From: Rubrobacter aplysinae
GTDB lineage: Bacteria; Actinomycetota; Rubrobacteria; Rubrobacterales; Rubrobacteraceae
Length of the DNA stretch: 44,061 nt
Direction of reading: 5' to 3'
NCBI RefSeq assembly: GCF_001029505.1
Contig: NZ_LEKH01000023.1
Span: forward strand, 1-44,061
Made by a program: the position numbers and the translations under genes. The notes under the pieces were generated by a model. That model was not told where the DNA came from. It made no database searches and saw nothing but the letters and a program-made list of their open reading frames with translations. This document shows positions 1 through 44,061 of this stretch, piece by piece (position 1 is the first letter of the stretch; every line of letters begins with the position of its first letter).

Positions 1-93
1 AACGGATCTCATCTGGTGGCGCTGGTTAGGGCCGGAGCGAAGTTCAGAAACGGAGAGCTGATAGAAGGAAGCGAGGAGAAGGTCGCCGCGTGA
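1..93 (+). CDS. 3' end of an unidentified coding region
   Basis: The first 93 bases read open in frame 1 to a TGA at 91-93 and encode NGSHLVALVRAGAKFRNGEL followed by a ten-residue acidic tail. The window edge removes the rest, so no family can be named. The amphipathic content and GC-rich third positions look like real coding sequence, but thirty codons are too few to be sure. It points toward the next gene with about 250 bp between them. Confidence 0.4.
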   Translation, partial: NGSHLVALVRAGAKFRNGELIEGSEEKVAA

Positions 94-342
94 CCCGACC
101 TCGATCCACAAGATTTGCAAATATCTCTGTAAAGGGTTGGTGAGTTGGTCTGTACTGTAGTCATAGAATAAAGTTCTTTACTAACTCATAAAGTCCCGGC
201 ATCAATAGCATCGAGGAGCCCGCGAATGTCATACTTTTGGCGAAGCCGTCGGCACCACGTTCCGCTGGTGCGGTGTGGGGAGAATCTTTCCGATGCCAAT
301 TCGCCGGCACTTGAAGTTGGATAGGACACCCTGGGAGAAAAC
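94..342. other. Intergenic spacer before the HEPN gene
   Basis: No gene is convincing here. The stretch 150-210 is AT-richer than its surroundings and probably contains the promoter of the following gene, but I see no clear -35/-10 pair. Small palindromes such as AAAG-TT-CTTT occur near 175-184. Confidence 0.4.
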
Positions 343-40845: not shown

Positions 40846-41003
40846 CCAGCAGCGTCTCGCAGATCTAGTATTCTCACTGGAGCGCGTCGTAACTTGAGTA
40901 CTCTGTAACTTCTCGGACGGAGTTCGTGGCTGGGCTAGCGCAAACTCCGCTCCCAAACTCCGTTGCAAGGGGATTAGGTAAGGCCAAATAGAGAGGGATC
41001 TTG

Positions 41004-43601
41004 ATGGATGAAGGAGGGGTTCCGGCAGGCACCGACATATTCTCCGTGCACGCCCGCTATGGTTCGGAGGTAGTTACTGTCCTAGAGCCAGACGGCACGA
41101 TACGCGGGGAGACCTCTACAATCTACCGGCTTCTGGGTTACAGACCAGAGGATGTAGAAGGTACGGACTATGACCCTGGCCAGAGCAAGTGGTTTGGCTT
41201 CGTCCACCCTGAGGATAGCGAGAAGCTACTTTCAGCCGTTGGCGGGTGCCTGGCTACCGCCGGAGAGAGCCCAGCGGTAGAGTACCGTATCCGACACGCC
41301 GACGACTCGTGGCGCTGGTTCGAGTCTCGGGGGGTCAACCTTGCTAGCGATCCACAGGTACAGGGCGTGGTGGTCTCCACAAGGGATGTTACCGACCGCA
41401 AAGAGGCCGAGCAAGCCCGTATCCAGAGCGAGACACGCCTGAAGAGCGCCTTCGAGGATGCGCCAATGGGGGTGGTCGTCTACGACCTCGAAAGCACCCT
41501 GATCGCGGTAAACCCGGCGCTTTGCAAGATGCTCGGCTACGACCGTCAAGAACTACTCGGGAGCTCTCCGCTAGAGATAACCCACCCGGATGACCGACCG
41601 CGGAGCCAACAGCGCACTCGGAAACTTCTCGATGGTGAGTTCCGCGAAAAGGGACTTGAAAAACGCTACTTGCGCAAGGGTGGCGGCTTCGTGTGGGCCT
41701 ACTGTGAGGCCCGGTTGGTGCTCGATGAAGGCGAAAGACCAAGTCACTTCGTCTGCCACATCCAGGACATTACAGAGCGAAAGCGCACCGAGACTGAGCT
41801 GGCCGAGAGCGAGCGGCGCTTTCGGCAGCTGTTCGAGCAGTCGGTTGACGCTGTGATCGTCCACGACAGTGAGGGGAACATAACGGATGTAAACCGACAA
41901 GCCGTGCTCTCTTTGGGCTACAGCCGTGAGGAGTTGCTCTCTATGAACGTCTCTGATTACGAGACGAAGCTGCTCTCAGAAGAGGAGCGCACCGAGAGGC
42001 AGAGGAGTGGGGACACACTCTGGCAGAGGATAGTGGCAAACGAGCCGGGGACGGTCATTGGTACGTCAAACGGAGAGAACCGTCGAAAGGACGGGAGTAC
42101 CTTCCCAGTAGAGGTTCTGGTAGGTGGGGTGGACTACGGCGGTCGTAGGCTTATCCTCTCTTCGATCCGGGACGTTACAGAGCGCAAGGCCCTTGAAGAG
42201 CGCCTAAAGCACCAGGCCCTGCACGACCCCCTTACCGGGCTTGTGGGTCGCGAGCTGGCGACCGACAAGCTCAAGAGCGCCTTGGCGCGTTCACGGCGTA
42301 ATAAAGAGAGCGTCGCCGTGCTCTTCGTCGACGTGGATAATCTCAAAATGGTAAATGACTCCTTGGGCCATGAGGCCGGCGACCGGCTGCTAGTCAACGC
42401 AGGCGAGCAGCTGCAGCAGTGCGTAAGAGAAGGGGACACGGTGGCCCGCTTTGGCGGCGACGAGTTCGTCGTCTTGCTAGAGAGCTCCGGTAGCGAGGAG
42501 GATGCCCTGCTCGTCGCCGACCGCATCCTAAAGAGATTTGAGGAGCCCCTGCGGGTAAGCGGCTACGAGGTGCCCGTAACCGTTAGCGTAGGCGTAGCCG
42601 TTGACTCCTACTGGGCGGAAAGCTCCCATGTAGAGGAGACAGCCCCAGAGAGCAGCTCGGTAGAGGCTTCTACGGACAGAGGCGAGAGTGGCTCGGTGAG
42701 CGCCGGAGAGCTAGTACGCCAGGCCGACGCCGCGATGTACCGGGCCAAGTCCTCCGGCGGGGCCAGCTACGCTGTCTTCGAGCCACAGATGGGCCGGGAG
42801 GACATTGAGCACCTGGAACTTTCGAGCGATCTGCACCGTGCCATAGAGCGCGGTGAGCTTAGGACCTACTATCAGCATAAGGTAGACCTCTCGACAGGCA
42901 GGGTTGCGGGCTGGGAGGCGCTCCTCAGGTGGGAGCACCCGGAGCGCGGCCCTATAGCGCCGGACGTGTTCATACCTCTAGCAGAGGGGAACGGCCTCAT
43001 AGTCCCTATAGGCAAGTGGGTGCTAGAGAGAGCCTGCGAGCAGGCCCGAATCTGGCGCGAGCGTTACCCGAAAGAGCCCGGGCAGTTCATGAGTGTGAAC
43101 CTCTCTGCAAAGCAGTTCGCCGATCCCGCCCTCGGAGATGAGGTAGAGCATATCCTGGAGCGTACGGGCCTACCGGCAGCCGCGCTAGACCTGGAGATAA
43201 CCGAAAGGGTCCTGATGAAGGTCGAGGGCTCGGAGTTCGCGCGGATGCGGGAGCTTAGAGAGCTTGGGCTTAGCTTTTCCTTGGACGATTTCGGTACCGG
43301 CTACTCCTCGCTGCGGTCTTTGAAAGAGCTTCCGGTGGACTTCATAAAGATAGACCGCTCCTTCATGGAGGGTGTGCCCGGAGAGTCCGAGGACGAGTCC
43401 TTCGTTACCGCGATGGTCGACCTTGCCCACGCCCTAGGGCTTGCCGTGGTCGGCGAAGGCGTAGAGAGTGAGGCGCAGTGGCATCGGCTAAGGGAGCTGG
43501 GCTGTGACTACGGGCAGGGCTACCATTTCTCACCACCTCTACCATCAGAAGCGGCCACGCTCAGCATGGAGCGCCTGGAGCGAGAAGGTCCTAGCGCATG
43601 A
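41004..43601 (+). CDS. PAS-PAS-PAS-GGDEF-EAL cyclic-di-GMP enzyme
   Basis: 865 aa from ATG 41004 (TTG 41001 is adjacent). Three PAS sensor domains (about 15-135, 145-262, 270-398) each end in a DVTDRK, DITERK or DVTERK linker. The GGDEF domain keeps RFGGDEFVVLL (near residue 485) and an RxxD inhibitory site (REGD) five residues before it. It carries a 40-residue acidic/serine insert near 530-570. The EAL domain keeps WEALLRW, LEITERVL, DDFGTGYSSL, IKIDRSF and VVGEGVES, so both cyclase and phosphodiesterase activities look intact. No membrane helix is seen, so it is a cytoplasmic sensor. Confidence 0.93.
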   Translation: MDEGGVPAGTDIFSVHARYGSEVVTVLEPDGTIRGETSTIYRLLGYRPEDVEGTDYDPGQSKWFGFVHPEDSEKLLSAVGGCLATAGESPAVEYRIRHADDSWRWFESRGVNLASDPQVQGVVVSTRDVTDRKEAEQARIQSETRLKSAFEDAPMGVVVYDLESTLIAVNPALCKMLGYDRQELLGSSPLEITHPDDRPRSQQRTRKLLDGEFREKGLEKRYLRKGGGFVWAYCEARLVLDEGERPSHFVCHIQDITERKRTETELAESERRFRQLFEQSVDAVIVHDSEGNITDVNRQAVLSLGYSREELLSMNVSDYETKLLSEEERTERQRSGDTLWQRIVANEPGTVIGTSNGENRRKDGSTFPVEVLVGGVDYGGRRLILSSIRDVTERKALEERLKHQALHDPLTGLVGRELATDKLKSALARSRRNKESVAVLFVDVDNLKMVNDSLGHEAGDRLLVNAGEQLQQCVREGDTVARFGGDEFVVLLESSGSEEDALLVADRILKRFEEPLRVSGYEVPVTVSVGVAVDSYWAESSHVEETAPESSSVEASTDRGESGSVSAGELVRQADAAMYRAKSSGGASYAVFEPQMGREDIEHLELSSDLHRAIERGELRTYYQHKVDLSTGRVAGWEALLRWEHPERGPIAPDVFIPLAEGNGLIVPIGKWVLERACEQARIWRERYPKEPGQFMSVNLSAKQFADPALGDEVEHILERTGLPAAALDLEITERVLMKVEGSEFARMRELRELGLSFSLDDFGTGYSSLRSLKELPVDFIKIDRSFMEGVPGESEDESFVTAMVDLAHALGLAVVGEGVESEAQWHRLRELGCDYGQGYHFSPPLPSEAATLSMERLEREGPSA

Positions 43602-43721: not shown

Positions 43722-43976
43722 CTCTAACCGTTTTATGCAGCTCTGGTGAATATCTGGTGCTACGGGAGCCCGAAAAGGCTCTAAAATCTCCGCTGAGGAG
43801 GTCGTGGCGGATCCGACGCTTGTAACAAGTTTTGAGGTTTTGAATAGATATACCGCTACATGAATAGCAGAGATGGAAACCAGACTCGTGAGGCAGCGTT
43901 CCACACCAGTTCTGTGACGGCTATATGTAAATGGGAGGTATAAGTAGAAGTTGTGGATCGGGCGTTTGAAAGGCAC

Positions 43977-44046
43977 GCGGTGTACCTTCCCTGTAAGCAA
44001 TCAGCAAAGACCCGGCGCACGAACGCCGGTGGGAAGGATACACCGC
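43977..44046 (+). promoter_or_regulatory. Riboswitch-like leader that sequesters a ribosome binding site
   Basis: GCGGTGTA (43977-43984) pairs with TACACCGC (44039-44046), and CTTCCC (43986-43991) with GGGAAG (44031-44036), forming a 14-bp stem with small bulges. Inside, CCGGCG-6-CGCCGG (44012-44029) forms a second hairpin and 43992-44011 is a single-stranded purine-rich strip. The GGGAAGGA that should serve the ATG at 44048 lies in the 3' arm. I could not match it to a known riboswitch class. Confidence 0.6.
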
Positions 44047-44047
44047 A

Positions 44048-44061
44048 ATGGACACACTACA
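44048..44061 (+). CDS. Possible start of the next gene (cut by window edge)
   Basis: ATGGACACACTACA begins nine bases after the buried AAGGA and directly follows the leader stem. Only four codons are visible, so this is a prediction from the regulatory context. Confidence 0.3.

Follow-up and report, generated by a model that had tools for sequence, protein, structure and literature searches.

A covarying leader before IS256-family transposase genes of Actinomycetota as a probable clamp on transposase translation

Background

Several insertion sequences are known to restrain their transposase through the leader of its mRNA. In ISPpu9 of Pseudomonas putida, a structured leader buries the ribosome binding site of the transposase mRNA, and weakening this 5'-UTR structure raised reporter activity 26-fold (PMC8450116). 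For IS200, the work of Beuzon (1999) and Ellis (2015), to the extent that it is cited in PMC2965389 and PMC8450116, likewise describes mRNA secondary structure that represses transposase synthesis, and for IS10/Tn10, transposase expression is described as guarded under outside transcription (Davis, Simons, Kleckner 1985, as cited in PMC2965389). Structured IS leaders also include the 'mobile attenuators' found upstream of transposases, which are thought to prevent expression in transcribed sites (PMC2965389). The LEU element of actinobacterial leuA has a base stem over the Shine-Dalgarno sequence and no conserved unpaired core, and a LEU-like sequence has been reported in a Bifidobacterium transposase gene (PMC1262725).

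Here we analysed a window of 44,061 bp that is the whole contig C23 of the 3.19-Mb genome of Rubrobacter aplysinae, at the end of which an original prediction had placed a riboswitch-like leader masking the ribosome binding site of the next gene. The leader turned out to lie at the left end of an insertion sequence of the IS256 family. Elements of this family are widespread and have terminal inverted repeats of about 25-40 bp and target duplications of 8-9 bp; to our knowledge, the control of their expression is poorly described.

Results

The last 127 bp of the window match the end of contig C7 of the same genome exactly, and the open reading frame that starts at ATG 44048-44050 runs in frame across this exact overlap into contig C7, where it encodes a 422-aa transposase (291 bits against NF033543, the IS256 transposase model with a cut-off of 150, and 208 bits against PF00872). 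The gene after position 44048 on which the original prediction depended, and which could not be seen at the time because the contig ends at 44061, is thus present and specifies an IS256-type (Mutator) transposase. The ends of the element, of 28 bp, have the length that is usual for terminal inverted repeats in this family, the left end GAGGTATAAGTAGAAGTTGTGGATCGGG and the reverse complement of the right end GAGATATTTGCAAATCTTGTGGATCGAG being alike at 20 of 28 positions. The left end begins with GAGGTAT, which is common to relatives whose flanks differ. The same element recurs at the start of the window, which opens with a copy's right end (Table 1), and contig C10 begins with another; the window contig probably ends at 44061 because the element is repeated, and an exact overlap of 127 bases, together with a contig start at which the IS part ends at base 127, looks like assembly breaks at a repeat.

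The flanks adjoining the IS ends, TGTAAATGG on the left (43926-43934) and TGTAAAGGG on the right (128-136), are alike at 8 of 9 positions and may or may not belong to one copy. Should they derive from a target duplication that has since mutated, the contig of 44 kb might be circular and carry a single IS copy; other flank pairings are possible because contig C10 carries another right end. At the right end of the copy on contig C7 (L003, 6561-6562), two N bases directly after the IS mark an artificial join, and the flank there is untrustworthy. The gene before the element (41001-43601) encodes an 866-aa protein that is PAS/GGDEF/EAL-like as judged by eye, ends 333 bp before the IS and has no evident link with the leader.

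Table 1. Features of the element and its leader in the window
Feature	Position	Strand	Basis
Left end of IS256-family insertion sequence, first 127 bp of element	43935..44061	+	Exact overlap with end of contig C7
Left terminal inverted repeat, about 28 bp	43935..43962	+	GAGGTATAAGTAGAAGTTGTGGATCGGG compared with reverse complement of right end
P1 5' arm GCGGTGTACCTTCCC, anti-Shine-Dalgarno arm	43977..43991	+	Folds and covariation
Variable interior	43992..44011	+	Low conservation; extra hairpin P2 in some relatives without consistent support
P3 hairpin CCGGCG-CACGAA-CGCCGG (44012-44017 with 44024-44029)	44012..44029	+	Covariation; 97.7% of cells paired in 56 leaders
P1 3' arm GGGAAGGATACACCGC, A44038 bulged	44031..44046	+	Folds; 91.2% of P1 cells paired in 56 leaders
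Shine-Dalgarno sequence GGGAAGGA in P1 3' arm	44031..44038	+	Sequence; predicted accessibility
Transposase gene start (ATGGACACACTACA...)	44048..44061	+	Continues on contig C7 minus strand, 422 aa
Right end of a copy of the same element	1..127	+	Last 30 transposase codons, stop 91-93, right terminal repeat ending at 127

The leader (43977-44046) folds into a 15-bp stem with one bulged A, P1, around a 6-bp hairpin, P3, so that the layout first described is present with an outer stem slightly longer than the 14 bp then given and with the hairpin as stated. The RNA of 43950-44061 has a minimum free energy of -44.6 kcal/mol (z -3.5 against dinucleotide shuffles, with none of 200 shuffles as good). 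Nine bases separate the Shine-Dalgarno sequence GGGAAGGA from the ATG. As long as the P1 5' arm is present, the seven paired bases of this sequence have a predicted unpaired probability of about 0, irrespective of whether the transcript starts inside the element or 100 nt outside; removal of that arm raises five of the seven to at least 0.75. In the predicted fold the Shine-Dalgarno sequence is therefore buried in a stable helix, as in translation-masking transposase leaders of the IS200/ISPpu9 type.

A transcript that starts after the 5' arm has, in silico, a mostly open Shine-Dalgarno sequence, which is what a protection of the IS10/IS50 type would require. Here the element's own mRNA, started from a promoter inside the leader and lacking the 5' arm, would be translated and only read-through mRNA would be clamped. 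Protection of Tn10 from external promoters is described as established in the citation of Davis (1985) in PMC2965389, and this reading is a sub-version of a clamp on translation that differs in the start of the element's own transcripts. However, a scan for sigma-70-like promoters, which is specific for this promoter type, found none in 43860-44061, the interior of the leader is variable and has no consistent TANNNT, and the best -10-like motif (TATAAG, TATGCT or TATAAC) belongs to the left terminal repeat and precedes the entire stem. Since no sigma-70-like promoter was found inside the leader, we regard such protection as possible but unsupported, and on balance rather unlikely. No intrinsic terminator was found on the + strand.

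With regard to the ends themselves, a -10-like TATAAG or TATGCT is present in left ends (window 43939-43944), and an outward-pointing TTGCAA or TTGACG in right ends (window 100-127; L015, L016). Judged from these motifs, ends joined with about 6 bp between them would form a promoter whose spacer measures 17 bp, similar to those of IS circle junctions.

A DNA search of 99 relatives returned homologous elements, several with the leader, and a protein scan of genome contigs gave one relative only, because a single-protein query reaches close relatives (the nearest named relative in the scan was a Rubrobacter MAG). A first covariance model, built from ten Rubrobacteraceae leaders, detected the leader in 9 of 39 genomes of the family and 18 of 396 genomes of Actinomycetota. 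With a second model, 26 of 297 genomes sampled from the class of an actinomycete relative proved to contain it. Matches are located on plasmids of Streptomyces, Mycobacterium, Mycolicibacterium, Pseudonocardia and Rhodococcus, and those in Mycobacterium include an M. avium IS666 copy. The position of the leader before IS256 transposase genes is constant: among 52 model matches that were checked, tblastn found a transposase downstream in 43, four run into a contig end (one of which, L085, still shows the transposase start) and five are decayed copies or an unclear remnant (L056). The latter is the sole unclear case among the scored relatives with enough downstream sequence, in all others of which a transposase gene or remnant follows.

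Three decayed elements (L094, L100, L109) have kept a recognisable leader before a broken transposase gene. In a Streptomyces copy (L075, NZ_CP109117.1, 297-356), the reverse transcriptase of a group II intron is the immediate upstream neighbour and other sequence, perhaps the 3' end of that intron, takes the place of the leader up to the start codon, with CTG instead of GTG.

When loci were sampled by protein first, 19 of 27 had the leader at E below 1e-7. Seven of the other eight show a visible helix of different sequence before the start (e.g. GAACATACCCTCC with GGAGAGTATGTTC), and one (L165) has no usable start. These helices range from weak in L179 (30/200 shuffles) and L171 (9/200) to strong in L181, L182 and L184 (0/200), in tests for which the start codon was picked among candidates by its helix, a choice that favours finding one.

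Covariance searches and alignments also revealed the compensatory changes on which the original prediction had staked its case. An alignment of the ten Rubrobacteraceae leaders made without any structure keeps both helices; one P3 pair is G-C in five leaders and A-U in five and a second P3 pair also changes on both sides, while P1 has only one-sided changes at that depth. Across 56 leaders, two-sided changes occur at 12 of the 21 pairs and 93.4% of cells pair, with 77 two-sided-change cells compared to 24.9 in shuffled alignments and at most 13 in slid versions. One P3 pair (alignment columns 66 and 78) is G-C in 34 of 56 leaders and A-U in 22. The larger alignments, of 27 and 56 leaders, were fitted to the structure model and lean towards that structure; folding of the 27-leader alignment by itself recovered the same helices. 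The helix that takes up the Shine-Dalgarno sequence in its 3' arm covaries across Actinomycetota, which supports the masking of the ribosome binding site that had been proposed.

A consistent third helix between P1 and P3, P2, was rejected, as the region alone has a mean fold z of -0.42, with 13 of 56 leaders below -1. P2 looks real in some Rubrobacteraceae leaders (e.g. L014, L021, L038), without general support.

Repeats near IS ends can bind transposase, and the stem folds well as DNA too (z -4.7), so the inverted repeats might act as DNA, e.g. as a cruciform or as a site bound by transposase or a repressor, and not as RNA. Against this stand the G-U pairs at many positions in the 56 leaders, the finding of the structure at the left end only, where its register with respect to the start codon is kept, the identity of the 3' arm with the Shine-Dalgarno sequence and the separation of the terminal repeats from the stem; we consider a role as DNA very improbable.

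The architecture resembles that of translational riboswitches, and for the analogous ISPpu9 leader, opening by an antisense RNA has been proposed (PMC8450116). A true switch, in which a small molecule, a protein or an antisense RNA opens or closes P1, would also agree with the good conservation of one interior A (column 28 of the 56-leader alignment) and the G preceding it. The remainder of the interior argues otherwise: the commonest base has a mean frequency of 0.48 in the unpaired interior versus 0.86 in paired columns (56 leaders), only one interior position reaches at least 0.9, and an aptamer-like core is thus not conserved, by which a ligand-binding core was rejected and a ligand pocket or metabolite riboswitch is unlikely. 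No conserved alternative pairing was seen, the regulated gene is a transposase, and Rfam gave no match to the leader, whether at the gathering threshold or with E values of up to 5 allowed. The ligand-sensing function originally proposed found no support, neither an alternative fold nor a ligand being indicated. A true switch is, in our opinion, quite unlikely.

Distant IS256-family transposases (about 23-50% identical) were compared at their annotated starts, since a choice of start by the best helix is biased. A start-site helix, counted if at most 10 of 200 shuffles reached it, is present in 7 of 16 of these as compared to 1 of 21 control ORFs, and the elements that carry it include Staphylococcus aureus IS256 (4/200), IS1542, ISEf1 and ISVa19. 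The other 9 of 16 have no significant start-site helix by this test (annotated starts, 200 shuffles), so that either such a helix is common but not universal in the IS256 family or the start calls are wrong in some elements.

Discussion

The explanation that we hold to be likely is that the leader is a cis-acting RNA clamp on transposase translation of an IS256-family element, which keeps transposition low. The leader would be the 5' part of the transposase mRNA, whose promoter would lie at the left end or outside it, and in this transcript the P1 5' arm would pair with the arm that holds the Shine-Dalgarno sequence. P3, a GC hairpin immediately next to the 3' arm, probably helps to bring the arms together. 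By hiding the ribosome binding site in a long stem that nearly abuts the start codon, the clamp would allow the transposase to be translated only rarely, and as such would limit transposition, also after landing in a transcribed region.

Divergent IS256 relatives, S. aureus IS256 among them, often carry an analogous stem of different sequence. It is conceivable, but we think it unlikely, that a start-site clamp is an ancestral, family-wide IS256 feature, which was kept by compensatory change during drift and is opened by a specific signal (an antisense RNA, a host factor or the element's own junction transcript) that licenses transposition. A covarying leader before IS256 transposases across Actinomycetota, together with the analogous stems in S. 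aureus IS256 and in enterococcal IS1542 and ISEf1, provides a testable account of element quiescence. Moreover, the leader would add an RNA family that is lacking in Rfam and would mark the left end and the true start codon of such elements.

Control through a transposase leader is a mechanism of a known kind, and we found no earlier report of this leader RNA, nor of stem-loops for IS1245 and IS1311, in the open-access literature. The leader is not a LEU element, as place and fold are different: LEU has a pseudoknot, and the copy reported in a transposase gene occupies coding sequence of a single element and not a leader (PMC1262725). 'Mobile attenuators' are intrinsic terminators (PMC2965389), in contrast to the structure described here, and IS10/Tn10 differs in that here no internal promoter of the sigma-70 type was detected downstream of the 5' arm. 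IS200 belongs to another IS family and, in the part of its literature cited above, also uses a cis-encoded sRNA and Hfq, while the ISPpu9 leader is proposed to be opened by the antisense sRNA Asr9 (PMC8450116). By analogy, the clamp here would nevertheless work like the leaders of IS200 and ISPpu9, a likeness that concerns mechanism and implies no homology.
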